37,263 bases of DNA from a virus. The stretch is taken from positions 1 through 37,263 of the IMG/VR virus record IMGVR_UViG_3300037882_001567; one strand, written 5' to 3'. The notes under the pieces were generated by a model. It saw only the letters and a program-made list of their open reading frames with translations. It was not told the origin of the DNA and did not search any database. Within the stretch, counting starts at the first letter, position 1, and every line of letters starts with the position of its first letter. Both the position numbers and the translations under genes were made by a program. Positions 22,385 through 33,817 of the stretch are shown one piece after another.

Positions 22385-22393
22385 GACGGGATT

Positions 22394-22612: not shown

Positions 22613-22654
22613 AAGGTCTACGGGCTATTGAGCTATATTAGATAGAACAGAACC

Positions 22655-23095
22655 ATGAACAAGCGTAACAGAATAATCGCTGTTGATTTCGATGGAGTTA
22701 TTGCTAAGTATTCGGGATGGCAGGGAGTAAACAAATATGAAGAACCGATACCAGGAGCAAGAGAATTCCTGAATGAGCTGAAGAACAACGGGTTCTACAT
22801 AATGATATTCACCCAGCGCATGTCACTAGCTGACAAGAAGAACTTTCGCAGCGAGAAAGATAGGGGTGTGGCAATCGAGAGCTTGCGCGCTTATCTTACT
22901 GCCTACAATCTTCCCTTTGATGAAATATGGACACAGAACGGGAAACCTCCCGCTGATGCCTTTGTGGATGACCGCGCCGTAGAATGCCGCCCTCAGTTTA
23001 GCCCCACAGCGTATAATGATGCTCTCAATAACATTCACAAGATTATGATTGTAGGAACTAAGAAACAATATGACGACGTACCAACAACAGTGTGA
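22655..23095 (+). CDS. HAD-superfamily phosphatase
   Basis: 146 aa. Motif I is IIAVDFDGVIAKY (nucleophile Asp in DFDG), motif II is MIFTQRM (Thr), motif III Lys lies in NGKPPADAF, motif IV is FVDDRAV. There is only a small cap insertion. The layout resembles phage polynucleotide/nucleotidase-type HAD proteins; the substrate is not evident. A weak TATATT box at 22634 may start it after the terminator. Confidence 0.8.
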   Translation: MNKRNRIIAVDFDGVIAKYSGWQGVNKYEEPIPGAREFLNELKNNGFYIMIFTQRMSLADKKNFRSEKDRGVAIESLRAYLTAYNLPFDEIWTQNGKPPADAFVDDRAVECRPQFSPTAYNDALNNIHKIMIVGTKKQYDDVPTTV

Positions 23096-23315
23096 AGAAC
23101 TAGCAGTGTGGATAAATACAGACCTACTTGAAGTACCGGACCCATTTACTGTAAGTGGCGAGGATATATTCACATTAGACCCAATGGGATTTTTATTCCA
23201 CATACACCTGTTAGATGCTTACAAAGCGAGGGGTTGTAACTTTGTCGATGTATTAGTGTCTGACGAATACGTAGCAAAACTCTTTTATAAGCAGTACGCC
23301 AATCAATCTCACTGA
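23070..23315 (+). CDS. hypothetical protein
   Basis: 81 aa, MTTYQQQCEELAVWINTDLLEVPDPFTVSGEDIF..., acidic, no recognised domain. It starts 26 bases inside the end of the phosphatase gene. Its stop codon coincides with the place where the start-less sigma-like frame begins to show homology, in the +1 frame. Confidence 0.55.
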   Translation: MTTYQQQCEELAVWINTDLLEVPDPFTVSGEDIFTLDPMGFLFHIHLLDAYKARGCNFVDVLVSDEYVAKLFYKQYANQSH

Positions 23316-23568
23316 AGAAACTGCCATAGAGAACATAGTCCAGCGTCTTTCTCACATTGAGATTACCGGCTTTGACCACACAGATATTGACCAGCAAATC
23401 CGCCTCTACTGTTACGTGTGTCTAAGGAGCTATTCAGATGAGGGCGGGAAATCGCTAGAGGAATTCCTGTACGTTCACGTTAAAAACCGCCTACTAGGAC
23501 TTAAGAGAGACAAATTTACCCATGATACACCCCGTAGATATAGTCAGGACAGATTACACCGAGCGTGA
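23275..23568 (+). pseudogene. start-less sigma-region-2-like reading frame
   Basis: This frame is open from 23275 but has no ATG, GTG or TTG before its conserved part. The product INLTEETAIENIVQRL...DIDQQIRLYCYVCLRSYSDE...SLEEFLYVHVKNRLLGLKRDKF is a relative of region 2 of the sigma-like protein at 20160-20792 (LENFLRVHVKRRLCNLKRD). It could be a decayed paralogue, could be reached by a +1 shift at the end of the 81-aa gene (CAC TGA A), or could use a non-standard start. The 3' end overlaps the glycosylase gene. Confidence 0.6.
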
Positions 23569-24076
23569 ACTCCAAGAGCTGCTAATTTTCTGTATCTGTG
23601 TAGCGGGTAAGACCGCCGTTACGATAGCCCCGCGAGTGGACCGGATTTTTGCGGGGGGTCGCAAGCTAATGCCCTTCACAGTGGCTCGGCGCTACACTGA
23701 GCCGCGTTTAATTAGAAGATTGCACTCAGAAGGCATCGGCTGTATGAAATTAAAAGCGCGGGCTATTCTTGAGGCCGCTCACTACCTCGGCCCCCTCCAT
23801 GAGACCGACGTTGAAGAACTAGAGTGTATCTATGGCATAGGCCCCAAAACCGCTCGGTTCTTCGTGATGTGCCATCGTCCCGGTGTGGCGCTGGCCGCGC
23901 TTGATACGCACGTTCTAAAGTACCTGAAATGGGCGGGAGTTTCCAATGTCCCGAAAGAAACCCCTGCGGCTGGACCCACGTATAGACGGCTGGAACAAGA
24001 ATTCCTAAAATTGGTGCCGCCCCACTTGACTCCGGCTGAGTTTGACACTATAATATGGAAGAGTTACGCCCTATGA
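23522..24076 (+). CDS. HhH-GPD DNA glycosylase (endonuclease III-like)
   Basis: 184 aa. The helix-hairpin-helix is LECIYGIGPKTARFFV with Lys109 in the position of the catalytic lysine of Nth, followed by LAALDTHVLKYL with catalytic Asp128. The C-terminal Fe-S cluster of Nth is missing. It would remove damaged or modified bases and, with the Lys, nick the strand. The stop overlaps the next ATG (ATGA). In a phage it may repair its own genome or attack host DNA. Confidence 0.8.
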   Translation: MIHPVDIVRTDYTERELQELLIFCICVAGKTAVTIAPRVDRIFAGGRKLMPFTVARRYTEPRLIRRLHSEGIGCMKLKARAILEAAHYLGPLHETDVEELECIYGIGPKTARFFVMCHRPGVALAALDTHVLKYLKWAGVSNVPKETPAAGPTYRRLEQEFLKLVPPHLTPAEFDTIIWKSYAL

Positions 24077-24378
24077 AAACCCTCAAGACCTTCTTCTACC
24101 TTACTCTTTTGGCTGCGATACTTTGTTGTAATATTAGTGTGAACAACGGGGGTTACCATGCTGAAAGCGGAGAACAATACTACATTACAGTGGTTGTGTT
24201 ACCACTTCAATACCAAATGGTGATTAAGCATTCCTATGAAGACGTTGTTACTAGCCCATCGGGACAAGCGACATTAAAAGAAAAGACGAAAGTGCGGGTT
24301 TATTTAGGTAGACTGGAAGAGATTCTCTATCCGGGGTTTATCAGGGAGTCTAAACTAGTATATGATTACACTTCGTGA
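24073..24378 (+). CDS. small exported protein, tandem paralogue 1
   Basis: 101 aa starting MKTLKTFFYLTLLAAILC, a signal peptide or anchor, then a beta-rich domain with VVVLPLQYQMVI. The start is the ATG in the ATGA overlap with the glycosylase gene. Related along its whole length to the next gene (FYLTLLAAILC/FWLTFLTAILC; VVLPLQYQMVI/VVLPLGYQLTI). A lipobox is not convincing. Function unknown. Confidence 0.6.
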   Translation: MKTLKTFFYLTLLAAILCCNISVNNGGYHAESGEQYYITVVVLPLQYQMVIKHSYEDVVTSPSGQATLKEKTKVRVYLGRLEEILYPGFIRESKLVYDYTS

Positions 24379-24661
24379 TTGGTTCTGGCTTACTTTTCTT
24401 ACTGCGATACTCTGTGCCAATACCGGCGTTTACGAGGCGGGAACTATCAGTGATGGTCAATTCAAGCACGAAGAGACTGCCGTGGTTTTACCGCTAGGCT
24501 ATCAACTAACCATTCAGCGTTATATGAAGCATCAGTGGACCTACGAAGATGAGTTTATAGGGACCGCTATCTACTTGTCCCCCCTTCAACCGGACTTTGC
24601 ACACACTGATTACAAACCGGAAAGACATCGGCTTTTATACCAAAGTGGGGTTACACCCTGA
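24362..24661 (+). CDS. small exported protein, tandem paralogue 2
   Basis: 99 aa, MITLRDWFWLTFLTAILCANTG, the same layout as the preceding gene: hydrophobic leader ending in a Cys-containing ILC, then AVVLPLGYQLTIQRY and a YEDEF segment. It overlaps the upstream gene by 17 bases. Tandem duplication of a small envelope-directed protein; function unknown. Confidence 0.6.
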   Translation: MITLRDWFWLTFLTAILCANTGVYEAGTISDGQFKHEETAVVLPLGYQLTIQRYMKHQWTYEDEFIGTAIYLSPLQPDFAHTDYKPERHRLLYQSGVTP

Positions 24662-24687
24662 AACCTGAAACCCGAAAGGACAATTCT

Positions 24688-24864
24688 ATGAAAGTTAGTG
24701 CTATTGCTTATTTTGTGGTGCTTGTTGGTATCATTATCGGAACTTGTTTCGTGTTTACAGAACCGCTTGAAAGATTAGGGGCGGTTTTGGTGGGGATTTT
24801 TACGTGGGGGGTTGTGGGACTTCTAACTACAGAAGCCTATAGAAAAGTGGTCAAGGGGTTTTAG
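24688..24864 (+). CDS. 58-aa two-helix membrane protein
   Basis: MKVSAIAYFVVLVGIIIGTCFVF...LGAVLVGIFTWGVVGLLTTEAYRKVVKGF has two hydrophobic helices separated by a short TEPLER loop. GAAAGGA stands 7 bases before the ATG. The small size and hairpin topology would suit a holin-like or anchoring role, but this is not shown. Confidence 0.6.
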   Translation: MKVSAIAYFVVLVGIIIGTCFVFTEPLERLGAVLVGIFTWGVVGLLTTEAYRKVVKGF

Positions 24865-25005
24865 AGGCTCCCACATTTTTTAGAGGGGCACAAGCCCCTA
24901 AAAGTGGTCGTTGGTTTTGAAAGGGCCTATCGTGTTTGCACCACCCCACCCGTTTGGGGGGTACGCCACCTGGGCCTTTTCTATTGAAAAAACCCCCCGG
25001 AGTGC
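24865..25005 (+). other. convergent intergenic gap with hairpins
   Basis: Lies between a rightward and a leftward gene. It holds the hairpin AGGGGC-ACAA-GCCCCT (24884-24899, extended by flanking T/A runs) and further GC-rich inverted segments to 24990. Neither strand shows a clean stem plus T-run, so the hairpins may stop both transcripts only weakly. Confidence 0.4.
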
Positions 25006-25206
25006 CTACATACCCCAGGCAATCACTTCCCATTCATCACAATCTAGGTCGAGCGGGTCAAGGGCGATAGCTACGATGCCACCAAGCCGCTTTGCCTCAC
25101 GCTGGGCATCCATGTAGCCCGTGACGATAGCACCGCGAGCGACGATACGCACGTCAACGTCGTGGGTGTGCTTCTCTTCGCGGTGGCCGTTGATGGTGGT
25201 AATCAT
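25006..25206 (-). CDS. 66-aa hypothetical protein
   Basis: MITTINGHREEKHTHDVDVRIVARGAIVTGYMDAQREAKRLGGIVAIALDP... is a compact alpha/beta protein ending in an acidic DEWEVIAWGM. The start at 25206 has AAGGAATTCAAA upstream. It is the only leftward gene among rightward ones here. No family recognised. Confidence 0.6.
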   Translation of the reverse strand: MITTINGHREEKHTHDVDVRIVARGAIVTGYMDAQREAKRLGGIVAIALDPLDLDCDEWEVIAWGM

Positions 25207-25293
25207 TTTGAATTCCTTTGTGTGAGTGATTGAACTACACATATATTATCGGATGCTATGCACTACAGCAATAGTGTACATGCATATTCATTG

Positions 25294-25363
25294 TGACCTA
25301 ACGTGTCACACGAAGAAAATACGTATGTTCACTATTGCGAAACAACGAAGTTGCCGATATACT
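25294..25363 (+). promoter_or_regulatory. upstream element A plus promoter
   Basis: TGACCTAACGTGTCA (25294-25308) with AAAATAC 22 bases after its start, then TTGCGA (25335-25340), 17-base spacer, TATACT (25358-25363). The element ends 27 bases before the -35 box. The same element and spacing occur at 26364 and 28842. It has a TGAC/GTCA dyad typical of a regulator site, probably an activator because of its position. Confidence 0.65.
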
Positions 25364-25400
25364 CTATAGAGTTAAACAATTCAGTATAAGGAAGTGAGTT

Positions 25401-25604
25401 ATACAAGTTATCAGCCAGAATCAAGCGGGCGTTCAGTTGGTCAAGGGAATCTTGGGCTACAGCATTAAGGGTTCACAGGGGCAAGTGTTACACGTTGGCA
25501 GCGAAAAGTACGTTCGCCAAGTTTGGAATGACCGCTACAATTGGAAAATGGAATTCAATCCGTCGTTCGGAATGCGGGTGACGTTTAATGGGGTTCGCCC
25601 GTAG
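25401..25604 (+). CDS. 67-aa protein, apparent ATA start
   Basis: The frame IQVISQNQAGVQLVKGILGYSIKGSQGQVLHVGSEK...FNPSFGMRVTFNGVRP has good coding character, but no ATG or GTG lies before its conserved part. ATA at 25401 sits 8 bases after AAGGA, the spacing at which the two genes with the same promoter type (26470, 28949) have ATG. So ATA is the likely initiation codon or a mutated ATG. A TTG at 25437 without a ribosome site is the alternative. Function unknown. Confidence 0.55.
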   Translation: MQVISQNQAGVQLVKGILGYSIKGSQGQVLHVGSEKYVRQVWNDRYNWKMEFNPSFGMRVTFNGVRP

Positions 25605-25612
25605 TTTAGCTC

Positions 25613-25641
25613 TTGACAGGACAGGGCGAAGCCCCTATAAT
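25613..25641 (+). promoter_or_regulatory. strong sigma70 promoter
   Basis: TTGACA, 17-base spacer containing GGGCGAAGCCC dyad, TATAAT (25636-25641). The expected start base is the A of the ATG at 25648. Confidence 0.85.
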
Positions 25642-25647
25642 ACAACC

Positions 25648-25872
25648 ATGAAATACAACCTACAATTTAAGCGTTGCATCCAAAGCGTTTACGGCTGGTT
25701 CGATGCTGGCAGCTTCGATACGCTGGATGAATGCGTTCACGAACTGTATTGCCACTATTGGCTGGATGCCAAGGTTATTGGCCCCAACGGCGAAGAATAC
25801 TCGATTGGTGAACAAGAGTACAGCGACGAGGATGGGGCTGAGTGCGTTTCTTTCTATTTCACCGGAGTCTAA
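25648..25872 (+). CDS. 74-aa acidic protein on a leaderless mRNA
   Basis: MKYNLQFKRCIQSVYGWFDAGSFDTLDECVHELYCHYWLDAKVIGPNGEEYS... is acidic in its C-terminal half with three Cys. The ATG is the seventh base after the -10 box, so the transcript should begin with AUG and lack an SD. No domain recognised. The next gene follows with its own SD 6 bases upstream. Confidence 0.65.
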   Translation: MKYNLQFKRCIQSVYGWFDAGSFDTLDECVHELYCHYWLDAKVIGPNGEEYSIGEQEYSDEDGAECVSFYFTGV

Positions 25873-25873
25873 C

Positions 25874-26050
25874 ATGAAAGTTTATGTCGCTCGTGATTAT
25901 GACGCTATTACTTATGCCGGCACGATGTTGGCCGCTGCTAAGTTAAAATGTCGCGGAGACAGTATCATCCAAGTTTGGCAAAATGGGCAGCTTATTGGGT
26001 GGTGGACCGTCCATAGTGTAGCCCCTACATGGAGATTCGTTGCCGTATGA
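25874..26050 (+). CDS. 58-aa hypothetical protein
   Basis: MKVYVARDYDAITYAGTMLAAAKLKCRGDSIIQVWQNGQLIGWW..., a small alpha/beta fold. GGAG stands 6 bases upstream of the ATG. The stop overlaps the next ATG (ATGA at 26047). Function unknown. Confidence 0.6.
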   Translation: MKVYVARDYDAITYAGTMLAAAKLKCRGDSIIQVWQNGQLIGWWTVHSVAPTWRFVAV

Positions 26051-26261
26051 AATATCTCGTTTCACTCGTTTTGCTTTACATTTTCCTTACAACTCTAATC
26101 GCGGTAGGTCTCTGGCGTATCTGATTATCGTTAAGGGCGTGATTTGCCACCGTGTTGACAGCTTCGCGGCAGAGTTGGAACTATACAATAGTTCAGGCGA
26201 GGCCGATTCCGAAGTTTTCAAAATAAACCCGGATAAAACCTTTAGCAAAGTATTGCCCTAA
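26047..26261 (+). pseudogene. small exported protein interrupted by a frameshift
   Basis: The ATG at 26047, coupled to the previous stop (ATGA), opens a hydrophobic leader MKYLVSLVLLYIFLTTLIAV that ends at a TGA at 26122. The -1 frame from about 26118 continues with YLIIVKGVICHRVDSFAAELELYN...KTFSKVLP to 26261 without its own start. Together they read as one small secreted or membrane protein with a single frame error near 26105-26124. No classical slippery heptamer is seen. It could also be a 25-aa membrane peptide followed by a non-coding remnant. Confidence 0.5.
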
Positions 26262-26337
26262 GTGCTTAGCCTGTAAGGCTTTAGGGCCGGCGGGGCCCGC
26301 GCGCGCGTCGTAAGTCCTTATGGCGTAAGGAGTTACG
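26259..26337 (+). repeat. three-hairpin intergenic repeat, copy 1
   Basis: Starts with the stop codon of the upstream frame. Arm 1 is AGCC-TGTAA-GGCT within AGTGCTTAGCC; the middle is a GC block with GGCGGGGCCCGC; arm 3 is TAAGTCCTTA / TAAGGAGTTA around TGGCG. Eight such copies lie between 26,259 and 34,812. Confidence 0.85.
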
Positions 26338-26363
26338 TCTAACATTGGCCGGTGCAGCCCGCG

Positions 26364-26433
26364 TGACCAAACGTGTCAAACCGCTAAAATACAGGCGTTC
26401 ACTATTGCGGAACTGCGAAACAACCGATATAGT
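26364..26433 (+). promoter_or_regulatory. upstream element B plus promoter
   Basis: TGACCAAACGTGTCA (26364-26378), AAAATAC, then GTTCACTATTGCGG shared with element A; -35 TTGCGG (26405-26410), 17-base spacer, -10 TATAGT (26428-26433). Drives the 115-aa gene at 26470. Confidence 0.65.
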
Positions 26434-26469
26434 ATATACATACGACACGCTTAACAAAGGGATTCAATC

Positions 26470-26817
26470 ATGGCTTTCGCAAACGTAACCGTCCTTAACA
26501 TTTCCGAGTTTGTTCGCACGAATTTTCACACGCCCAAGGCGGTTGACGAAGTCTTTGAATGCATCGAAATGCAAACGAGCGACGGCTATCGTCTGCGGAA
26601 TTTCACCCGCCAGGGCAGCGAGTTTTCGCGGGCGGTCAAGGTGGATGAATCGTTCCCGCTATCCTACACGGTCAAGGAAAAGCGAACCTGCCCGGAAACC
26701 GGCATGGCTTACACGGCGGTTACGTTTTGCTCCAAAGGTCAGACCAAAGCGGCTATCGCCGTTGAAAAGAAGGCCGCAAAGATTCTGGCACGAAATCGGA
26801 AACTGGGGCTTGCGTAG
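26470..26817 (+). CDS. 115-aa hypothetical protein
   Basis: MAFANVTVLNISEFVRTNFHTPKAVDEVFECIEMQTSDG... with a basic, Ala/Lys-rich C-terminal helix (AAIAVEKKAAKILARNRKLGLA, quoted as VEKKAAKILARNRKLG). AAGGGA stands 7 bases before the ATG. The shape is that of a small nucleic-acid-binding protein; no family recognised. Confidence 0.65.
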   Translation: MAFANVTVLNISEFVRTNFHTPKAVDEVFECIEMQTSDGYRLRNFTRQGSEFSRAVKVDESFPLSYTVKEKRTCPETGMAYTAVTFCSKGQTKAAIAVEKKAAKILARNRKLGLA

Positions 26818-26838
26818 ACCGCCAACTGGCGGTATACT
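26810..26838 (+). promoter_or_regulatory. sigma70-like promoter
   Basis: TTGCGT (26810-26815), 17-base spacer with a CCGCCAACTGGCGG dyad, TATACT (26833-26838). It starts inside the end of the 115-aa gene and reads into the zinc-ribbon gene. Confidence 0.6.
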
Positions 26839-26872
26839 AGTCTTATTCAACCGCTTACCAATGGAGTTGAAA

Positions 26873-27133
26873 ATGATGACCGAGCAACAGCTATACGACC
26901 TACACCGCCACTATAGCTACAATTGCTTGTCGTGGGAACATTTTCTATTGCTCATTTCAACCCGCGAACTAGGCCATGAATCGTATGCGGTTGAGTGCTA
27001 TGAATGCGGGGAATTCATTTTGCCCGAACTAGGCGCTTCACACCGTTGCAATTGTGGTAATCGTCGCTGCTATATGCAATATAGTGAACCAAACAAGCTA
27101 AATCCAGGGTTTTTCTACGCGGCAGTTGATTAA
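26873..27133 (+). CDS. 86-aa zinc-ribbon-like protein
   Basis: MMTEQQLYDLHRHYSYNCLSWEHFLLLISTRELGHESYAVECYECGEFIL...HRCNCGNRRC. The pairs CYEC and CNCGNRRC can bind one zinc ion. GGAG lies 6 bases before the ATG at 26873. The tRNA-like RNA at 27134 begins on the base after its stop codon, so the two are on one transcript. Confidence 0.6.
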   Translation: MMTEQQLYDLHRHYSYNCLSWEHFLLLISTRELGHESYAVECYECGEFILPELGASHRCNCGNRRCYMQYSEPNKLNPGFFYAAVD

Positions 27134-27212
27134 GGGCCTGTGAGGGTTCGACCCACTGTAAAGCCGTACACGGAAACAGTAGGGCATCCGGGTTCAATTC
27201 CCGGCAGGTCCA
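27134..27212 (+). ncRNA. tRNA-like/tmRNA-end-like structured RNA
   Basis: 7-bp acceptor-like stem GGGCCTG/CAGGTCC, discriminator A, canonical T-arm CCGGG-TTCAATT-CCCGG. No D-arm or anticodon arm; instead GGG-TTCGA-CCC near the 5' end (compare the GGNTTCGAC of tmRNA D-loops) and a single hairpin ACTGT...ACAGT enclosing CCG-TACA-CGG. It looks like the tRNA-like domain of a tmRNA with only a mini-hairpin in place of the long mRNA part. The pairing is read directly; any charging by a synthetase is inference. Confidence 0.6.
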
Positions 27213-27231
27213 CTGATACTGCGTATCTTAA

Positions 27232-27342
27232 GGTGAAACTATGCCACCGTGAACTGTGAGCGGCGGGAATGAAAGCTTGCAACCGAGAGCTAGGCGGAAT
27301 GCAAGCGAAGCCGAAAGCCTAGCTACTGACTAAAATCTCACC
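27232..27342 (+). ncRNA. pseudoknotted structured RNA
   Basis: Outer pair GGTGA/TCACC. Inside lies a perfect H-type pseudoknot: stem 1 GCTTGC (27275) with GCAAGC (27301), stem 2 AGCTAGGC (27288) with GCCTAGCT (27317), loops of 7, 5 and 10 bases. No ORF. It lies between the tRNA-like RNA and repeat copy 2. I cannot match it to a known ribozyme or riboswitch. Confidence 0.65.
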
Positions 27343-27422
27343 CTAAACCCTTACGCCGTATGGACTTACGGCGTTCGCGGGGGCCCCGCCGAGCGTAAGT
27401 CGTTGGTACATAAGGACTTAGA
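27343..27422 (+). repeat. three-hairpin intergenic repeat, copy 2
   Basis: Arm 1 CGCCGTA/TACGGCG, central GCGGGGGCCCCGC, arm 3 TAAGTCGTTG/ATAAGGACTTA. Followed by GACCAAAGGTGTCGCAGCAAG, a relative of the upstream regulatory elements. Confidence 0.85.
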
Positions 27423-27483
27423 GCTACGCTCCCGGACCAAAGGTGTCGCAGCAAGAAAATAGCACAATTATAAAGGGCGGGCC

Positions 27484-27511
27484 TTGACAGGGGCGGGGGC
27501 CAGTGTATAAT
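27484..27511 (+). promoter_or_regulatory. strong sigma70 promoter
   Basis: TTGACA (27484-27489), 16-base GC-rich spacer, TATAAT (27506-27511). The predicted first base, A27518, is the first base of the helix of the RNA below. Confidence 0.85.
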
Positions 27512-27517
27512 GCGTAC

Positions 27518-27646
27518 ATGGCAAAAGGGGATTGAAAAGGCGGGTTTGACGGCGAGATAGACGGTTCGACTCCGTAGTTTCACAACCGCAAGTGATTTAC
27601 TCCCGCTATACAATCTCTGGGCATATCAACACCCTGCCATATTTTT
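27518..27646 (+). ncRNA. structured leader/RNA with T-arm-like hairpin
   Basis: Starts at the predicted start base with ATGGCA, which pairs with TGCCAT (27635-27640) just before ATTTTTATC. The first ATG gives only a 5-codon frame. Inside lie GCGGG/CCCGC and a T-arm-like ACGG-TTCGACT-CCGT followed by GTTTCAC. It may end at the T-rich stretch or act as the 5' leader of the 49-aa gene. Confidence 0.5.
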
Positions 27647-27673
27647 ATCATTTCCCTTTTAAGGTTCTTACCC

Positions 27674-27823
27674 ATGAACACGATTCTCAAGATTGGTTCG
27701 ACCATTGTGTACTGCACCCACTCGTTTAAGGTGGTGGCATTCACCAAAGAGGGGGTTGTCATCAGCAACCACCAGCGTACCATTACCATTACCCGCGAGC
27801 AGGCCCTCGCCTGTTCCAACTAA
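27674..27823 (+). CDS. 49-aa protein
   Basis: MNTILKIGSTIVYCTHSFKVVAFTKEGVVISNHQRTITITREQALACSN. A short beta-barrel-like peptide (SH3-like look), no recognised family. AAGG lies 9 bases before the ATG and the gene directly follows the structured RNA. Confidence 0.55.
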   Translation: MNTILKIGSTIVYCTHSFKVVAFTKEGVVISNHQRTITITREQALACSN

Positions 27824-27852
27824 ACTAGGCCCATAAGCCGCCTGTAGCCAGA

Positions 27853-27866
27853 AGAACGCGAGTTTA
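27853..27866 (+). repeat. AGAACGCGAGTTTA, variant of the AGCACGCGAGTTTT motif
   Basis: One of four copies (also 31051, 34980, 36021). Here it lies 5-18 bases before the ATG of the 57-aa gene and could supply the GAG of its ribosome site. In the others it ends a structured, non-coding stretch. Confidence 0.5.
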
Positions 27867-27870
27867 TACC

Positions 27871-28044
27871 ATGTTGCAATATACCGTATCGGAAAAGGTG
27901 GAAATCACCAAGGGCGAACTAATCACAATCAAGAACCTCGTCGATGCGAAGTTGTGGGAAGAGCGTCAGGACATCAACAAGAACAGTTGGCCGGCTCAAG
28001 AGCTTGCGAAGCTTTTGGAAAAACTTGAGAAAATCCTGAAATAG
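27871..28044 (+). CDS. 57-aa charged helical protein
   Basis: MLQYTVSEKVEITKGELITIKNLVDAKLWEERQDINKNSWPAQELAKLLEKLEKILK, mostly helical with a Leu/Lys amphipathic end. Preceded by the AGAACGCGAG motif. Function unknown. Confidence 0.55.
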   Translation: MLQYTVSEKVEITKGELITIKNLVDAKLWEERQDINKNSWPAQELAKLLEKLEKILK

Positions 28045-28048
28045 GCCA

Positions 28049-28077
28049 TTGACATAGAGGGGCTTTTGCCCTATAAT
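28049..28077 (+). promoter_or_regulatory. strong sigma70 promoter
   Basis: TTGACA (28049-28054), 17-base spacer with GGGGC-TTTT-GCCC dyad, TATAAT (28072-28077). Expected first base A28084. The transcript runs through three structured RNAs to the 83-aa gene. Confidence 0.85.
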
Positions 28078-28083
28078 ACATCC

Positions 28084-28168
28084 ATCGAAACAACAATCTA
28101 AGGGTTGACGGTGACTGCGGGTAGACCCTGAAAAGTCTAGCGAGGTCAAGTGGAACCGTAAAATATAC
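28084..28168 (+). ncRNA. structured 5' RNA domain of the 28,084 transcript
   Basis: After an unpaired A-rich start, GGTTGAC (28103) pairs with GTCAA...AACC (28145-28157), enclosing GACT/AGTC and GGG-TAGA-CCC. A separate hairpin CCGTA-AAATA-TACGG follows and runs into the tRNA-like element. No ORF. Confidence 0.5.
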
Positions 28169-28327
28169 GGCCCCCTAGCTTAATTGGTTAAAGCAGCAGA
28201 GCTACTACTCTGTTCCAGAAGTGCGGTCACTATTACACGTCGGCTTAGTCACCGACCAATGTAGGTGGACGCATGGAGGCATCAACTAGACTGGTTGATG
28301 ATGCCAGTTCGATTCTGGCGGGGGTCT
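28169..28327 (+). ncRNA. tRNA-like RNA with canonical ends and an expanded core
   Basis: 159 nt. Acceptor GGCCCCC/GGGGGTC, then TA, a textbook D-arm GCTT-AATTGGTTA-AAGC, and a textbook T-arm GCCAG-TTCGATT-CTGGC. Between them, instead of one anticodon arm, are CAGAG-CTACTA-CTCTG (6-base loop), a long interrupted hairpin from TGCG (28222) to CGCA (28273) with inner GTCGG/CCGAC, and CATCAAC-TAGACTG-GTTGATG (loop lacks U33). No standard anticodon loop fits. It could be a tRNA with an insertion or a dedicated tRNA mimic. Confidence 0.65.
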
Positions 28328-28328
28328 G

Positions 28329-28407
28329 CTTACACTGTAGGTCGAAAGACCGAACAACGAGGCGTCAGTCCACGCCTACAACCCCCGAAAGGGGGAGAGT
28401 GTGTAAG
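28329..28407 (+). ncRNA. 79-nt cloverleaf RNA with GAAA tetraloops
   Basis: A perfect 7-bp closing stem CTTACAC/GTGTAAG encloses three perfect hairpins: GGTC-GAAA-GACC, GGCGT-CAGTCC-ACGCC and CCCCC-GAAA-GGGGG. Size, 7-bp stem and 4/5/5-bp arms copy a tRNA cloverleaf, but the loops are GNRA tetraloops and there is no T-loop or anticodon. Confidence 0.75.
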
Positions 28408-28443
28408 GGACAAGACAACCACCATTCCTTAAGGACGAAGTCC

Positions 28444-28695
28444 ATGTATTACTGTGCAAATTCCAAAGTTGGTCAAGCTATCCACCCGGCCATCTGGATG
28501 ATTGTTTACTATTTCGTGGAGCGGCAAATCCCTATGGGTAAGCTGCATATTATCAATCTGGCCCGCAAAACAGCGGAAGCGACCGGGGCAAACAGCGAGG
28601 AAACTTCGCTTATAATGGTTAAGCAATTTGTTGAACATGTGGCGAACGAACACGCTTACAAGTTTGACGCAAAGCCTGCCCAGGTAACGACTTAG
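28444..28695 (+). CDS. 83-aa hypothetical protein
   Basis: MYYCANSKVGQAIHPAIWMIVYYFVERQIPMGKLHIINLARKTAEATGANSEE..., helical, small, no recognised family. AAGGA lies 8 bases before the ATG at 28444; longer frames upstream run through the structured RNAs and are rejected. The long structured leader makes post-transcriptional control plausible. The stop codon lies inside repeat copy 3. Confidence 0.6.
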   Translation: MYYCANSKVGQAIHPAIWMIVYYFVERQIPMGKLHIINLARKTAEATGANSEETSLIMVKQFVEHVANEHAYKFDAKPAQVTT

Positions 28696-28748
28696 GGCGG
28701 GCGGGGCCGCCCCGCGAAGCCTAAACCCTTATGGCATAAGCACTTACG
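28692..28748 (+). repeat. three-hairpin intergenic repeat, copy 3 (arm 1 missing)
   Basis: Central GCGGGGCCGCCCCGC and arm 3 TAAACCCTTA/ATAAGCACTTA are present; the first hairpin is missing because the coding region ends at the boundary. Confidence 0.8.
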
Positions 28749-28754
28749 TCAATC

Positions 28755-28840
28755 TTCCCGAACGGGAATATGGGGCTTGTTTTCGGCTGCGTAACGTGGT
28801 ATAATGGCCGGATTGTGTCCGATTATTCCCGATAGGGAAT
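28755..28840 (+). promoter_or_regulatory. promoter flanked by two operator-like palindromes
   Basis: Palindrome 1 is TTCCCG-AA-CGGGAA (28755-28768), palindrome 2 ATTCCC-GATA-GGGAAT (28825-28840), both followed by TATG-like bases. Between them lie TTGTTT (28777), a 17-base spacer and TATAAT (28800-28805). This looks like a repressor-controlled promoter; the second site is downstream of the start. Confidence 0.55.
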
Positions 28841-28841
28841 A

Positions 28842-28909
28842 TGACCAGACGTGTCAAACCCCAAAATACATCTGTACAGTATAGACACGCCGCACGAATC
28901 TGCTAGAAT
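28842..28909 (+). promoter_or_regulatory. upstream element C plus promoter
   Basis: TGACCAGACGTGTCA (28842-28856), AAAATAC, then TAGACA (28882-28887), 16-base spacer, TAGAAT (28904-28909). Same element-to-promoter distance as in copies A and B. Confidence 0.6.
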
Positions 28910-28948
28910 CCTATTATTGAGTTAAGGCCACTTACTAAGGATTGCCAA

Positions 28949-29368
28949 ATGAACATTTCGCTCGAATCGCGTTTCTCCGATGTTGAACTTTTCCAGATGT
29001 TCGACCTTGATATTGGCTCTTGCATGATTGCCCAGGGGCACAAGGCGAATGACCCTGCCCTAGTGAACAAGGGTCAACGTGTTCAGTCGAGTTTGCTTGT
29101 TTATCGCAATCGCAATCGGGCAGGCGACAACGTGCAAGCTGACGCGAAAACCAACTATCGCAAGTTGATGGGACACCCCGGCACGTTCAGCATTGAAATT
29201 GACAAATCGGGCAAGGGTGAACATAAAGTCAATATGCAGAAAACAGGCATCGGTTGTGACAAGGCTTTTCGGGCGAGTCGCGTAGCATCGCTGGCGGCAG
29301 CCTACGCAGAGAACACCGTGAGCGAAGTATCCCCTTTTGATGTCGGCTTTGCCGACTTCGGAGAATAG
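28949..29368 (+). CDS. 139-aa hypothetical protein
   Basis: MNISLESRFSDVELFQMFDLDIGSCMIAQGHKANDPALVNKGQRVQSSLLVYRNRNRAG... with a central HPGTFSIEIDKSGKGEHKVNMQ beta segment. Soluble; no motif I can name. AAGGA lies 7 bases before the ATG. It is controlled by element C and possibly by the flanked operators. It overlaps nothing, and the next gene starts 1 base after its stop. Confidence 0.65.
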   Translation: MNISLESRFSDVELFQMFDLDIGSCMIAQGHKANDPALVNKGQRVQSSLLVYRNRNRAGDNVQADAKTNYRKLMGHPGTFSIEIDKSGKGEHKVNMQKTGIGCDKAFRASRVASLAAAYAENTVSEVSPFDVGFADFGE

Positions 29369-29369
29369 A

Positions 29370-29669
29370 ATGAGCGAAGCGAACTACGATTTTCGGGCGT
29401 ATTATGACCAGTGGTGCAGCGAGAAAACGGGGCTGCCAAAATACCCCGTTGCTACAATTTGGTATCTATTCCAAGATAGCATTCGACACACTGAATTGAT
29501 TGCCACTGTTTCGGCGGCGGTCAATCGGTTGTGCATGATGAATTTGGAGCCGACCGGCTACAATGTAAATACGTACACTGACCACCTGCGACCTGACAAT
29601 TGTTCAGTAGCTCGCTGGCGGAACATTCTGAAATTGGTCATGCGTGAGGGAATGCCAGAGGCTCTCTAA
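29370..29669 (+). CDS. 99-aa hypothetical protein
   Basis: MSEANYDFRAYYDQWCSEKTGLPKYPVATIWYLFQDS... is helical, with no recognised family. GGAG stands 6 bases before the ATG at 29370. Its stop codon is the first part of repeat copy 4. Confidence 0.6.
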   Translation: MSEANYDFRAYYDQWCSEKTGLPKYPVATIWYLFQDSIRHTELIATVSAAVNRLCMMNLEPTGYNVNTYTDHLRPDNCSVARWRNILKLVMREGMPEAL

Positions 29670-29744
29670 GTCCTTTGTGCGTAAGCACTTAGGACACGGG
29701 GGGCGGCCCCGCGAGACGTAAGTGTATATGGCATAAGGACTTAG
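29666..29744 (+). repeat. three-hairpin intergenic repeat, copy 4
   Basis: Arm 1 is GTCCT..GTGC-GTAA-GCAC..AGGAC with a GNRA loop; centre GGGGCGGCCCCGC; arm 3 TAAGTG.../...GGACTTA. Copy 6 changes GTGC/GCAC to GTGT/ACAC, a compensatory change. Confidence 0.85.
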
Positions 29745-29773
29745 GCGATTTCGATAAACTTTGATTTTGCGCC

Positions 29774-29802
29774 TTGACCGTGGGCAACGCTCACGGTATA
29801 CT
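29774..29802 (+). promoter_or_regulatory. sigma70 promoter
   Basis: TTGACC (29774-29779), 17-base spacer with CCGTG/CACGG dyad, TATACT (29797-29802); reads into the phosphoribosyltransferase gene. Confidence 0.75.
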
Positions 29803-29832
29803 TGGGGAGTCAACTTAACCCGGAGCCATCAT

Positions 29833-30288
29833 ATGTCGCGGCATTCAAGCTATCTTAGTCACATTTTCGGCAGCGTCAACGAGTTGGAAAACACCGTTGC
29901 CTATACCGTGAAACAAGCGTCAAAAAAGCGATTTGATGCTATCGCTGTACGGGGTGTTTCAGGCATTACTATCGGTAGCATCGTGGCGTATGCCATGAAG
30001 AAGCCGCTGGTGGTGGTTCGTAAACCAAAAGATGGGTCGCACGGCGAATGCAAAGCCGAAGGATTGCCGAACGGCCCCTGCACCTATTTGGTGATTGATG
30101 ATTTCATTTCGAGCGGTCATACTGTCGCCAGCATCGTGCAAGAGATTCACGACGAATCGGAAGGGGAGGCCGAGCTTGTAGGCTCCATCGAAACCCGCGA
30201 AGGCCATCGCGGATTCAAGTCGGCAAAGAGCTTGGCAAAATTTTACCGCTACGTTGATGAGGCTATTAAGGGACAATATCAGCCCTAA
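29833..30288 (+). CDS. phosphoribosyltransferase
   Basis: 151 aa, type I PRTase fold. The PRPP loop is YLVIDDFISSGHTVAS (residues ~93-108) with the paired Asp; GVSGITIGSIVAYAM is the usual pyrophosphate-loop region and LVVVRKPKDGSHG the next strand. The ATG at 29833 has GGAG 7 bases upstream. It transfers a base to or from PRPP (purine or orotate type); the base cannot be told from sequence. A nucleotide-salvage or base-modification role is likely. Confidence 0.85.
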   Translation: MSRHSSYLSHIFGSVNELENTVAYTVKQASKKRFDAIAVRGVSGITIGSIVAYAMKKPLVVVRKPKDGSHGECKAEGLPNGPCTYLVIDDFISSGHTVASIVQEIHDESEGEAELVGSIETREGHRGFKSAKSLAKFYRYVDEAIKGQYQP

Positions 30289-30385
30289 CACTTACATCCT
30301 GATATTCAATCTCGATTGTAAATTGCTTCGCACTTACGCAGCCGAAAAGAGGTAGAACCAACAGCAAGAGGGAAAATTTCAGCAT
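30266..30385 (-). CDS. 39-aa lipoprotein on the opposite strand
   Basis: MLKFSLLLLVLPLFGC then a 23-residue alternating beta-like tail ending VRADIVP. Lys in the n-region, a Leu-rich core and LFGC lipobox make a complete lipoprotein signal. It lies antisense to the last 23 bases of the phosphoribosyltransferase gene. The ribosome site is weak (GGTG). It may be an outer-membrane lysis or superinfection-exclusion factor. Moderate confidence because it is short. Confidence 0.5.
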   Translation of the reverse strand: MLKFSLLLLVLPLFGCVSAKQFTIEIEYQDVSVRADIVP

Positions 30386-30400
30386 TTTTCACCGTAGGGG

Positions 30401-30428
30401 TTGACAGTGTGAAACTCTATGGTATAGT
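30401..30428 (+). promoter_or_regulatory. sigma70 promoter
   Basis: TTGACA (30401-30406), 16-base spacer, TATAGT (30423-30428), before the acidic-protein gene. Confidence 0.75.
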
Positions 30429-30469
30429 ATCGGTACGAAAGCCACTCACCTTTAGTTCAGGAAAACAAA

Positions 30470-30679
30470 ATGATTGATTACACCCACGACTACAATCCCC
30501 ATGACGACGGCGAAGCGGACGAGTTGGACACGTTCGACGTGGAAGATGACAGCCAGGACAACTGGGAAGCGGACGAGGACGATTATGACGGACAGCCAGA
30601 CGAGTACACCGAGTGGCAGGACTTGCACGGCGGCGACGACTGGGACCACGGACAATATGACAACGGCGACGACTACTAA
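30470..30679 (+). CDS. extremely acidic 69-aa protein, candidate DNA mimic
   Basis: MIDYTHDYNPHDDGEADELD... About half the residues are Asp or Glu, mixed with Tyr, Trp, Gly and His, and almost no Lys or Arg. Such composition is seen in phage DNA-mimic inhibitors (Ocr-like) of restriction enzymes and nucleoid proteins. AGGA lies 7 bases before the ATG, and it has its own strong promoter. Overlaps the next gene by 23 bases in another frame. The inhibitor role is inference from composition. Confidence 0.65.
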   Translation: MIDYTHDYNPHDDGEADELDTFDVEDDSQDNWEADEDDYDGQPDEYTEWQDLHGGDDWDHGQYDNGDDY

Positions 30680-30824
30680 GACCGTCGCGGTCTGTTCGCT
30701 GTGCGGCCAGCCTATTACGCCCGTTGTTTATACGGGCAAGCCGCCGCGTGTTTACCACTGGGATTGTGCGTATAAGGATTGCGAGGACATCCGCAATCAA
30801 CTAGCAGCGAACGCTAAGTGCTGA
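30657..30824 (+). CDS. 55-aa zinc-finger-like protein
   Basis: MTTATTTKTVAVCSLCGQPITPVVYTGKPPRVYHWDCAYKDCEDIRNQLA... The CSLC and HWDC...C spacing fits a one-zinc knuckle. Starts inside the acidic gene; a GGA lies 4 bases upstream. Its TGA stop is inside repeat copy 5. Confidence 0.6.
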   Translation: MTTATTTKTVAVCSLCGQPITPVVYTGKPPRVYHWDCAYKDCEDIRNQLAANAKC

Positions 30825-30892
30825 GCCTGTAAGGGTTTACGCTCGGCGGGGCCGCCCCGGCCACCCTAACTCTTTACTGCGTAAGGACTTAG
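30814..30892 (+). repeat. three-hairpin intergenic repeat, copy 5
   Basis: AGTGCTGAGCC-TGTAA-GGGTTTACGCTC, then CGGCGGGGCCGCCCCGG, then TAACTCTTTA/GTAAGGACTTA. The next promoter starts 10 bases later. Confidence 0.85.
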
Positions 30893-30901
30893 AGCGAGCT
30901 A

Positions 30902-30929
30902 TTGACACTGGGGCTATCTGTGCTATAAT
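30902..30929 (+). promoter_or_regulatory. strong sigma70 promoter
   Basis: TTGACA (30902-30907), 16-base spacer, TATAAT (30924-30929); predicted first base A30936. Confidence 0.85.
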
Positions 30930-30935
30930 GGTGGT

Positions 30936-31065
30936 ATGAGCTGACGGCTAATGGTCAGACCTATCAGAGCATACATTCTGGAAAGAGTGTATGTCCTCAT
31001 GGGCCTAACCGTTTCTTTTAATATAGCCCCGTAGCCACCCACTGCCAGTAAGCACGCGAGTTTTT
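30936..31065 (+). ncRNA. three-way-junction RNA ending in AGCACGCGAGTTTTT
   Basis: The predicted first bases ATGAG pair with CTCAT (30996-31000), enclosing CTGAC-GGCTAATG-GTCAG and CATACATTCT-GGAA-AGAGTGTATG (10 bp, GNRA loop). The 8-base loop GGCTAATG could pair with TAGCC further down (31024 or 31032), forming a pseudoknot. The stretch ends with AGCACGCGAGTTTTT. No ORF longer than two codons starts at the first ATG. Confidence 0.7.
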
Positions 31066-31086
31066 CAAATTCTGTGCAGAATTCTG

Positions 31087-31115
31087 TTGCTTTAAGCCGC
31101 CAGCCGTGGTAAAAT
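31087..31115 (+). promoter_or_regulatory. promoter placing the start at ATG
   Basis: TTGCTT (31087-31092), 17-base spacer, TAAAAT (31110-31115); A of ATG is the seventh base after the box. The same -35 hexamer and spacing serve the paralogous gene at 33194. Confidence 0.7.
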
Positions 31116-31121
31116 ACGACC

Positions 31122-31706
31122 ATGAAAAGCAAACTATCGCGTAAGCCTGTCGCCCACAACAAAGCAATCCGCCGCTGGTTGAAATGTGTCAGCGGCTCCG
31201 GTGTTGACGCCATGTATAGTGACGTTAGCAAACACTGGGGATTTAAGTGGTATATGTGTCAGGGAAAATGCACCCAGACCTATACCGTGCAATACATGGC
31301 AGCAGAACAAGATTGTGGTCCAAAGGTCGGACCTCTTGTTAAGTTTTACATAAAGGAACGCCCGCGATACGGATACCTGACTCAAAGGGCTACTTCGCTT
31401 AGTAAAGTATTCAAAACGTGGAATGTTGATTGGTATTTTGATACTGACGGATACGAAGGGAAGTGCCAACAGCTTGCCGATATGGGTTGCCCCAATTTTT
31501 GGAAGTTTGCAGCGAGTTGCGGCTTTGAAGTTCGGGATATGCATATGGGTAACATCGGCTACCTCACCACCACCGGACGGGGGGTAGTGATTGATTTCGG
31601 GCACTGGTATGAAACCAATGCTTGTGACCGATACAAGGTACTCTATCGTAAGTTTGAGGAAAGTTATCAGGATGGTGGTGTTGTGAAACCACCGAAATGG
31701 TTCTAA
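31122..31706 (+). CDS. small kinase-like (PKL-fold) protein, paralogue 1
   Basis: 194 aa. The C-terminal half has a kinase/aminoglycoside-phosphotransferase catalytic loop DMHMGNIGYL (Asp139, His141, Asn144) and a metal-binding VIDFGHW (Asp158). An N-terminal SKHWGFKWY offers a candidate Lys. The whole is about 60 residues shorter than a minimal kinase, so the N-lobe is reduced. The paralogue is at 33194-33766. Probably leaderless. Targets may be host proteins or small molecules; unknown. Confidence 0.65.
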   Translation: MKSKLSRKPVAHNKAIRRWLKCVSGSGVDAMYSDVSKHWGFKWYMCQGKCTQTYTVQYMAAEQDCGPKVGPLVKFYIKERPRYGYLTQRATSLSKVFKTWNVDWYFDTDGYEGKCQQLADMGCPNFWKFAASCGFEVRDMHMGNIGYLTTTGRGVVIDFGHWYETNACDRYKVLYRKFEESYQDGGVVKPPKWF

Positions 31707-31709
31707 GCT

Positions 31710-31788
31710 CTAAGTCCTTTGTGTGTAAACACTTAGGACGAGCGGGGCGGCCCCGCGAGCCATAAGTCTATACGGCACAAGCACTTAC
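31710..31788 (+). repeat. three-hairpin intergenic repeat, copy 6
   Basis: Arm 1 GTCCT..GTGT-GTAA-ACAC..AGGAC, centre GCGGGGCGGCCCCGC, arm 3 TAAGTCTATA/CAAGCACTTA. Compensatory changes against copy 4 support RNA structure. Confidence 0.85.
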
Positions 31789-31817
31789 AGCAATTCTCAA
31801 TATTTTAGACGTGGCTC

Positions 31818-31845
31818 TTGACACTGGCGGGAACCGTGCTATAAT
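31818..31845 (+). promoter_or_regulatory. strong sigma70 promoter
   Basis: TTGACA (31818-31823), 16-base spacer, TATAAT (31840-31845); drives the Gp88-like gene with a short leader. Confidence 0.85.
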
Positions 31846-31871
31846 CGTGACATAACCCAAAGGAAACCACG

Positions 31872-32585
31872 ATGAACCAATTCGGATTCTGCAATCTGTT
31901 GACCCCTGGACTTGCGAACGCTAAAATCGCCAAGGGTGAGGGTGGTGAATATCTGACCACTATCATGCACTTGTCGCCGCATAAGGCGAGCGGCGTTGGC
32001 AATGTTTGCCCGATGGCATCGCCTGGATGTATTGCGGCCTGTCTCAATACGGCTGGCCGTGGTATCTATGACAATGTGCAACTTGCCCGCAAAAATCGCA
32101 CCGTATTGTTTTTCGAGAATCGCCCGAAATTTCTCGAATTGCTCCGCGATGAGATGCACGCTCACAAGCGTAAAGCTATCCGCGAAGGCAAATTGGCTTG
32201 TTACCGATTAAACGGCACAAGCGACATCGTTTGGGAAAAACTGGCTCCCGAACTGTTTACGGAATTTTCGGATTGTCAATTTTACGACTATACGAAATAT
32301 CCGAAGCGTTGCCTATCGTCATATAAGCTACCCGCCAACTATCATTTGACGTTTAGCAAATCGGAAGAAAATCTGGCCGATTGCAAGCGTGTCCTACGCT
32401 CTGGTAAGTGTAACGTCGCGGTCGTTTTCAAGGGGCAACCCCCCGCCAAGTATCTAGGTCGTGAAACCTATACGATGGACGAAAACGACTTGCGTTTCCT
32501 CGACCCCCCTGGTGGTTGTATCGGGGCACTCACAGCGAAGGGTAAAGCGAAGCATGACAAATCCGGGTTCGTCGTCCTACAATAG
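31872..32585 (+). CDS. Gp88-like phage protein
   Basis: 237 aa. The Cys-rich motif VCPMASPGCIAACLNTAGRG and the RLNGTSDIVWEKLAPELF block are hallmarks of the actinophage gene-88 family as I remember it, also found in other phages and mobile elements; its function is unknown. AGGA stands 7 bases before the ATG. Cys residues could bind a metal or Fe-S cluster. Confidence 0.75.
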   Translation: MNQFGFCNLLTPGLANAKIAKGEGGEYLTTIMHLSPHKASGVGNVCPMASPGCIAACLNTAGRGIYDNVQLARKNRTVLFFENRPKFLELLRDEMHAHKRKAIREGKLACYRLNGTSDIVWEKLAPELFTEFSDCQFYDYTKYPKRCLSSYKLPANYHLTFSKSEENLADCKRVLRSGKCNVAVVFKGQPPAKYLGRETYTMDENDLRFLDPPGGCIGALTAKGKAKHDKSGFVVLQ

Positions 32586-32775
32586 GGCGACATACGGCGA
32601 GCTACTCGATTATCTCTTGGAGCTTGCAGAAATCAATGACCCCCGTTTGGGGGATACCATCGTCGTTCAAACCATCGACGGCGATACTTTTCCGGCTGAA
32701 TTCCTAGAATTCGGCGGGGATGAAATTAGAGAAGATGGGCAAATTGTACTCTTGTGTAAGGAATGGAACGAATGA
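32551..32775 (+). CDS. 74-aa acidic hypothetical protein
   Basis: MTNPGSSSYNRATYGELLDYLLELAEINDPRLGDTIVVQTIDGDTFPAEFLEF... begins 35 bases inside the end of the Gp88-like gene. Acidic alpha/beta small protein, no family recognised. Its TGA overlaps the next ATG. Confidence 0.6.
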   Translation, partial: SMTNPGSSSYNRATYGELLDYLLELAEINDPRLGDTIVVQTIDGDTFPAEFLEFGGDEIREDGQIVLLCKEWNE

Positions 32776-33029
32776 ATCAAGTGGAAATTCTGCAAAAGGT
32801 GGCGGCTGGTGAATTGACTGCGGCAGAAGCTGCGGCTATGTTCGACGCGGCCCCTGCTCGTGGCCTGAGCTATAAGGTCAGCGAAAAGGGAGCGTTATCC
32901 GTCTATGGGGTGGGTCGCTTCCCCCTGACGGCCTATTTGCAAACGTGGGAGAAACTCGACAGCGACGAGGAACGCGGGCGGCGCGCTGCCTTTATTGAGG
33001 CGAATCGTGCCAAATTTTCGGTCAAGTAA
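32772..33029 (+). CDS. 85-aa hypothetical protein
   Basis: MNQVEILQKVAAGELTAAEAAAMFDA is a short helical hairpin, then LSYKVSEKGALSVYGVGRFPLTAYLQTWEKL, a pattern I have seen in proteins of phages and other mobile elements but cannot name. Start at 32772 (ATGA overlap, AAGGA upstream); an in-frame ATG at 32763 is the alternative. Confidence 0.65.
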   Translation: MNQVEILQKVAAGELTAAEAAAMFDAAPARGLSYKVSEKGALSVYGVGRFPLTAYLQTWEKLDSDEERGRRAAFIEANRAKFSVK

Positions 33030-33050
33030 AATTGTCGGTCGTGTGCAGTC

Positions 33051-33128
33051 CTAAGTGCTGACCCCGTAAGGGGTTACGCACGGCGGGGCCGCCCCGCGTG
33101 AGCTAAGTGCTTTAGTGCCAAGGACTTA
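33051..33128 (+). repeat. three-hairpin intergenic repeat, copy 7
   Basis: Arm 1 GTGC..CCCC-GTAA-GGGG..GCAC, centre GGCGGGGCCGCCCCGC, arm 3 TAAGTGCTTT/CAAGGACTTA. Confidence 0.85.
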
Positions 33129-33158
33129 CAACTTTCTGTCGTTTTTATGACTTTCCGC

Positions 33159-33187
33159 TTGCTTCTGCTGTCCTACTGTGGTAGAAT
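33159..33187 (+). promoter_or_regulatory. promoter placing the start at ATG
   Basis: TTGCTT (33159-33164), 17-base spacer, TAGAAT (33182-33187), ATG at the seventh base after. Confidence 0.7.
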
Positions 33188-33193
33188 GCCACT

Positions 33194-33766
33194 ATGAAAC
33201 TCAAGCAACGCATCGTTGAACGGATTTACAAGGGCGTGCTAGACGGCAAGAAAGATACCTCTAGCGGGTGCTGTGCTAGATTTATACGCCTCAGCAAACA
33301 TTGGGGATTCAAGTGGTATGCTAGTCTAAGGGATTGCTTACAGACCCATGAAATGCAGTCGCGGGCACACAAGCAAGGGTGGGCACCAGCACTAGGCAAC
33401 ATCGTTAGCTTTCGTGGGAGATATAAGGGGGATAATGAATACGGCTACGCCGTTCAATATGCCACCACCTGGAAAGCATACCACGGAATCGACCCCTCTG
33501 TTAGGTGGTGTGATGGCGATTTTATGATGGACGAAGATAGGAATAGCCTAGACTTTGACTATTATAGCTTGCCAGATTTTCACGAGCTATCCGACCAATG
33601 CGGATTCACAGGCCACGATTTTCATTATCAGAATGTCGCCTATCTGGCCGATGATACGGTCGTTGTCATCGACTTTTCGGAATGCCGCTTTAATGATGGT
33701 ACGACCATTGCAAGGCTGGAAGAAAAATTGCATCGCCACTTGACACAACGTGGTTCGGTGCTATAA
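33194..33766 (+). CDS. small kinase-like (PKL-fold) protein, paralogue 2
   Basis: 190 aa. Shares SKHWGFKWY, an xQTxxxQ...A segment and YGYAVQYATT with paralogue 1. The catalytic loop reads GHDFHYQNVAYL (Asp142, His144, Asn147) and the metal site VVVIDFSEC (Asp160). The usual Gly of DFG is Ser. Probably leaderless, with the same -35 hexamer as paralogue 1. The two copies bracket the Gp88-like cassette. Confidence 0.65.
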   Translation: MKLKQRIVERIYKGVLDGKKDTSSGCCARFIRLSKHWGFKWYASLRDCLQTHEMQSRAHKQGWAPALGNIVSFRGRYKGDNEYGYAVQYATTWKAYHGIDPSVRWCDGDFMMDEDRNSLDFDYYSLPDFHELSDQCGFTGHDFHYQNVAYLADDTVVVIDFSECRFNDGTTIARLEEKLHRHLTQRGSVL

Positions 33767-33767
33767 T
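33740..33767 (+). promoter_or_regulatory. strong sigma70 promoter
   Basis: TTGACA (33740-33745), 16-base spacer, TATAAT (33762-33767), overlapping the end of the kinase-like gene; drives the HTH gene. Confidence 0.8.
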
Positions 33768-33817
33768 ACAGAAGTTGAAGTTTTCAAGTTAACCCCTTTA
33801 TTTTGGAGAGTGAACGA

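Follow-up and report, generated by a model that had tools for sequence, protein, structure and literature searches.

The window analysed here, the whole 37,263-nt IMG/VR virus record IMGVR_UViG_3300037882_001567 (positions 1-37,263), contains what we read, with a probability of about 45%, as a structured RNA of about 325 nt, driven by a promoter and built around a tRNA frame with two extra arms and no decoding loop. That the RNA is real and tRNA-framed is very likely. Because the nearest relative found carries RNAs of similar design, the 159-nt central element probably represents a genuine non-coding RNA derived from a tRNA. The features are listed in Table 1.

Table 1. Positions and supporting evidence for the features described in the text. 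Rows marked G030 refer to the nearest relative; all others refer to the window.
Feature	Positions	Strand	Sequence or evidence
Terminase large subunit	14018-17209	minus	LAGLIDADG intein in P-loop (GWGK/SFLL)
Mini-tmRNA-like RNA	27134-27212	+	RF00023 35 bits, under gathering 47
Sigma-70-type promoter	28049-28077	+	TTGACA-17-TATAAT; 12/12 consensus bases
5' leader	28084-28168	+	possible hairpins 28113-28147 and 28156-28170 (pair probabilities)
Expanded tRNA-like element, 159 nt	28169-28327	+	RF00005 score, fold z, frame scan
Acceptor stem	28169-28175 with 28320-28326	+	GGCCCCC/GGGGGUC; 7/7 pairs, one G.U
D-arm, 4 bp	28178-28194	+	GCUU-AAUUGGUUA-AAGC, G18G19; sequence, RF00005 alignment
Hairpin in anticodon-arm position	28196-28213	+	GCAGAG-CUACUA-CUCUGU; pair probability 0.87-0.99
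Extra arm 1, interrupted 21-bp stem	28214-28277	+	terminal GUCGG/CCGAC, 8-nt loop
Extra arm 2, 9-bp stem	28280-28300	+	CAUCAACUA/UGGUUGAUG, loop GAC; folding, pair probabilities
T-arm, 5 bp	28303-28319	+	GCCAG-UUCGAUU-CUGGC; pair probability 0.98, RF00005 alignment
3' cloverleaf, 79 nt	28329-28407	+	closing stem CUUACAC/GUGUAAG, 7 bp; three hairpins
Shine-Dalgarno-like sequence	28430-28435	+	UAAGGA; covered by predicted hairpin GGAC-GAA-GUCC, 28433-28443
83-aa gene	28444-28695	+	codon score 0.15 (gene median 0.139)
G030 enlarged tRNA-like, 178 nt	56-233	minus	
G030 enlarged tRNA-like, 143 nt	1450-1592	minus	RF00005 40 bits
G030 syntenic tRNA-like, 191 nt	6005-6195	minus	7/7 acceptor, T-arm, encoded G73-CCA

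A tRNA frame with an enlarged core

The first-pass annotation described a 159-nt RNA with canonical acceptor stem, D-arm and T-arm. All three are present, and the element scores 36.0 bits against Rfam model RF00005 (E 1.2e-5; gathering 29) in a 1-kb cmscan search with lax filters, in which the insert is skipped in the alignment. All 16 of the 16 tRNA-frame pairs can form. G18G19 and UUCGA are in place, and the U8 and A9 residues are also present. The discriminator is U73 at 28327, and CCA is not encoded. When the window was scanned for frames of >92 nt with a 7/7 acceptor, a T-arm and a D-arm with GG, the element was recovered, and five shuffled windows gave none; the expectation is 0.013 per Markov-shuffled window (150 shuffles). 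The element also folds better than shuffled sequences (z -4.45).

ARAGORN at default settings did not call the element, and filters dropped it in larger Rfam searches, the default-filter search of the window included. Since the RF00005 match is lost to filters in larger searches, absence of the element from routine annotation means little.

The annotation's statement that it knew no described phage RNA with this layout holds: Rfam gives tRNA alone, no homologue was found in phage or plasmid records, and as a decoding tRNA the element does not qualify. In BLAST searches of those records the RNA region gave at most short D-arm matches (E ~4), and blastn against the phage records returned short chance-level matches alone, the best one over the D-arm. 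IMG/VR was also scanned for the pattern of a D-arm with a T-loop far 3' of it, and the nine matches were all ordinary tandem tRNAs. A 25-nt match between a domain-3 hairpin and an HU-like gene in another genome, G029, was taken as chance in a GC hairpin because the flanks do not match.

The claim that the core lacks an anticodon loop was too strong, as a 6-bp hairpin sits in this position; its loop, however, is 6 nt, or 8 nt with the top pair open. Anticodon loops that decode are seven bases long, and the element has no such 7-nt loop with U33. Extra arm 1 is built of stems of 4+4+4+4+5 bp with small internal loops between them. The insert as a whole (28213-28302) is itself structured (z -3.73, 1/200 shuffles). 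Within extra arm 1, GUAGGUGGAC (28261-28270) is complementary to GUCCACGCCUAC (28368-28379) of the 3' cloverleaf over 10 bp with a 2-nt bulge, a possible alternative pairing.

Enlarged tRNA-like RNAs in the nearest relative

The window terminase groups with uncultured phages, several contigs of this group being 150-230 kb long. The nearest relative found is G030 (IMGVR_UViG_3300025066_000101, alias L227; 31.5 kb), at 62% in the terminase comparison. The two phages have in common a 115-aa gene (26470 in the window, 9511-9164 in G030; 46% identical) and a 139/164-aa gene (28949 and 5188-4859; 28% identical). Between these genes, in both phages, a promoter precedes a long, structured RNA that includes an enlarged tRNA-like. 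In G030, positions 5880-6530 (minus strand) of this interval have a TTGACA/TATAAT-type promoter followed by a structured RNA of ~650 nt that contains the 191-nt tRNA-like. Protein searches with the 83-aa, 139-aa, 115-aa and 85-aa Cys-rich queries returned G030 alone or no match, and the portal candidate and small genes near the RNA had 0 matches in 50,697 phage records.

Frames of >92 nt with a 7/7 acceptor and a T-arm number two in G030 against 0.05 expected. ARAGORN accepted no tRNA in this genome. The 143-nt element has normal acceptor, D- and anticodon arms with anticodon loop CUAUAAA, and ~70 nt are inserted between its T-stem and T-loop.

The best alignment of the window RNA with the syntenic G030 RNA lies within shuffles (11/100), and alignments with the other G030 RNAs were likewise discarded as shuffle-level, the mini-tmRNA pair described below excepted. 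Because the RNAs do not align beyond chance, what the two phages have in common here is agreement in position and design, with homology undemonstrated.

Transcript layout and the downstream gene

The strong promoter reported at 28049 has the full consensus, and by its position transcription would be expected to start near 28084. The whole 324 nt has a fold z of -3.80. A branched 5' domain (28084-28168) had been proposed, and its fold is not significant (z -1.09, 33/200 shuffles); as an independent structured RNA it was rejected. In the full leader, the predicted hairpin 28156-28170 would tie up the first two bases of the acceptor. Forming the 7-bp acceptor instead costs just 2 kcal/mol, which is within model error.

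The 3' cloverleaf begins one base after discriminator U28327. It is present with its 7-bp closing stem as described (z -4.79, 0/200 shuffles), and the GAAA loops attributed to it occur in two of its three hairpins, the third loop being CAGUCC. Codon use in the 83-aa gene that follows is coding-like, as had been supposed. Its protein had no match in PHROGs, Pfam or PADLOC, and AlphaFold gives a helical model of low confidence (pLDDT 60). The earlier observation was largely right, apart from the 5' branched domain and the division into separate RNAs. Its interpretation stands for a tRNA-like within a structured transcript, to which the RF00005 match attests, and an array of three separate RNAs is unsupported. 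As it proposed, the RNA may be a multi-part tRNA mimic, a sponge or a leader that senses tRNA processing.

The main rival to the reading given above is a cis-acting 5' leader, in which all 360 nt of the structured region remain part of the 83-aa mRNA and govern how it is translated or how stable it is, the tRNA-like part being a ligand- or protein-binding domain. Ribosomal-protein and synthetase leaders act in this way. The RNA lies between promoter and gene with no terminator-like site from 28049-28077 to the 83-aa gene, which makes the element the 5' UTR of a gene, and, by sequence, short leaders are the rule for the other genes of the region. The Shine-Dalgarno is predicted to lie in a hairpin and beside a long-range helix, 28099-28107/28423-28431. 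This helix, however, is no better than shuffled flanks (264/1000) and was rejected as a closing helix around the leader. Furthermore, the small ORF that follows the syntenic RNA in G030 differs from the 83-aa gene, so the RNA is not tied to a single gene. We regard the cis-acting leader as somewhat unlikely.

Decay of an ordinary phage tRNA gene, with loss of the anticodon loop and gain of an insert to leave it functionless, is a less likely source of the element. The 5' half does resemble phage Met/Ile tRNAs, a BLAST match to tRNA-Ile included, the loop is non-standard, and no homologue was found in phage or plasmid records. Decay is hard to square with an elbow whose bases are intact and with acceptor, D-arm and T-arm pairs that are all intact too, with an insert more structured than shuffles behind the element's own consensus promoter, and with the recurrence of similar enlarged tRNA-likes in G030.

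It is very unlikely that the extra segment is an intron whose removal yields a decoding tRNA. Precedents exist in relatives: a tRNA-Gln(UUG) in G036 has a group I intron, and excising 70 nt from the 143-nt G030 element gives a textbook tRNA. In the window element, no RF00028 (group I intron) match was found, though the same search finds the G036 intron (53.7 bits), and a group I intron would need a longer insert. A script that allowed a single excision to restore a 5-bp anticodon stem and 7-nt loop with U33 and a purine at 37, the variable region being 4-26 nt long, gave 0 solutions, so that single excision is largely refuted. The ARAGORN proposal of a tRNA-Ser(ACU) with a 63-nt intron was rejected, its anticodon stem being poor.

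It is hardly credible that the 83-aa gene starts inside the element at 28273, with accidental structures: the frame is open from there (140 aa), but the codon score of 28273-28443 is -0.122, lower than in 95% of real gene windows (limit 0.035), against 0.15 for 28444-28692, and the tRNA frame and fold statistics also speak against it.

Comparison with known RNAs

Phage tRNA genes (RF00005) resemble the window element in their acceptor, D- and T-arms and elbow residues, in scoring over the cut-off and in being phage-encoded. The window element differs in its length of 159 nt, its two extra arms and an anticodon loop that is not 7 nt.

tmRNA (RF00023) likewise puts a tRNA-like domain to a non-decoding purpose. 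By contrast, 28169-28327 has a canonical D-arm, no tag frame and no G3:U70, the third acceptor pair being C-G, and RF00023 gave no match there. Group I introns in tRNA genes offer a parallel for an insert within a tRNA frame, one of them in G036, whereas the window insert is unmatched and its removal leaves no decoding loop. In plant RNA virus tRNA-like structures and mascRNA, a tRNA-like half within a longer transcript is read by tRNA enzymes. Their genomes are unrelated to the window, and the likeness is one of predicted structure.

The T4 stable RNAs C and D map to the T4 tRNA region. They are small phage RNAs of unknown function (PMC9697503); they belong to another phage group and are likened to the window RNA by description. 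GOLLD and ROOL are large, structured RNAs that phages and prophages carry close to tRNA islands. The GOLLD linker sometimes includes tRNAs, and phage ornate RNAs may contain tRNAs (PMC12286853). The window RNA differs in size (~325 nt against >800 for many GOLLD) and in having the tRNA frame as its core, and it gave no GOLLD or ROOL match in Rfam at E up to 10. As judged from its sequence, 28169-28327 is tRNA-derived, has no decoding loop, and is not a tmRNA, GOLLD, ROOL or detected group I intron.

Proposed processing and role

The acceptor/T-arm half of a tRNA is what RNase P and RNase Z read. Because these enzymes read that half, we infer that host tRNA enzymes would recognise it in the transcript, RNase P cutting at 28168/28169 and RNase Z after 28327, and that CCA addition would then give a stable RNA of ~160 nt. 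We put maturation like a tRNA at even odds. The 83-aa mRNA released in this way would be capped at its 5' end by the 3' cloverleaf; stems at the 5' end of an mRNA usually protect against decay.

The extra arms would be the working part, shown on the tRNA body, and the RNA may mimic a tRNA towards, or serve as a decoy for, a host protein that binds or cleaves tRNAs. This role is the weakest step of the mechanism and is suggested tentatively. It was chosen because the element keeps the elbow and ends of a tRNA but not its decoding part. A further reason is the known action of phage tRNAs against defences that cleave tRNAs, by which they help phages survive (PMC11555353, PMC10264068); the RNAs involved there are ones that decode.

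Further tRNA-like RNAs in the window and its relatives

The mini-tmRNA-like RNA at 27134-27212 has a tmRNA-type D-loop, G3:U70 and A73. A closed hairpin replaces the mRNA part, and there is neither a tag ORF nor room for a tag. It is homologous to G030 304-381 on the minus strand (score 28, 0/100 shuffles). Three paired double changes separate the pair, a weak signal as there are just two sequences. Their features make both candidates for an alanine-accepting tRNA-like without a tag.

Just 3' of this RNA lies a perfect H-type pseudoknot (27275-27324, plus strand), in which GCUUGC/GCAAGC (6 bp) is interleaved with AGCUAGGC/GCCUAGCU (8 bp). At 27561-27575 on the plus strand a T-arm-like hairpin, ACGG-UUCGACU-CCGU, is found in the leader behind a consensus promoter at 27484; as a whole, this leader folds at shuffle level.

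More distant relatives have tRNA-likes of another kind. A tRNA-like of 77-91 nt is common to G002 (53159-53248, minus), G036 (39778-39854, plus) and G047 (21806-21893, minus). It consists of an acceptor, a T-arm and a U-rich linker, and a single short hairpin (loop GUGGGA) stands where the D- and anticodon arms would be. In the alignment 50/50 scored cells pair, and five pairs are changed on both sides. A tmRNA is present in G002 and G047. As these three genomes show, tRNA-like RNAs that do not decode are found repeatedly in the wider phage group, though they need not share a function.

A broader and equally tentative reading is that a lineage of large uncultured phages produces a dedicated set of RNAs that are tRNA-framed but do not decode, and which might act as effectors against, or subverters of, the host tRNA machinery. 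The set would comprise the enlarged tRNA-likes, the tagless mini-tmRNA and the anticodon-less tRNA-likes of the cousins, the window element being one member. RNAs of this kind, with ends and elbow kept, the decoding loop dropped and extra arms added, would point to use of the tRNA shape and not of codons. Since standard tRNA finders miss them, they could be common and unseen. The window and G030 set is more interesting than the window element alone, and the elements of both genomes are concrete sequences for expression and probing.

Other observations

The G036 group I intron lies at 37893-38158 (L235 17893-18158) in the anticodon loop of the tRNA-Gln(UUG). In a 2014 review, the phage group I introns then known were in protein genes alone (PMC3984707). 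G037 has a Pistol ribozyme over the cut-off (54.8 bits; 21839-21906, L230 1839-1906, minus) immediately 5' of tRNA-Arg within a cluster of phage tRNAs. The terminase of L011 has an intein at the same site as that of the window.

Sigma-70-like promoter matches in window positions 20000-37263 number 57, against 21.6 expected, and six of them are 12/12. Several precede structured leaders. A dispersed intergenic repeat (CCTAAACCCTTATGGCATAAGCACTTACG with GCGGGGCCGCCCCGC) occurs in the window near 26258, 27345, 28695, 30820, 31705, 33045 and 34730, and copies of it are also found in G030, G036, G037, G042, G044 and G047.
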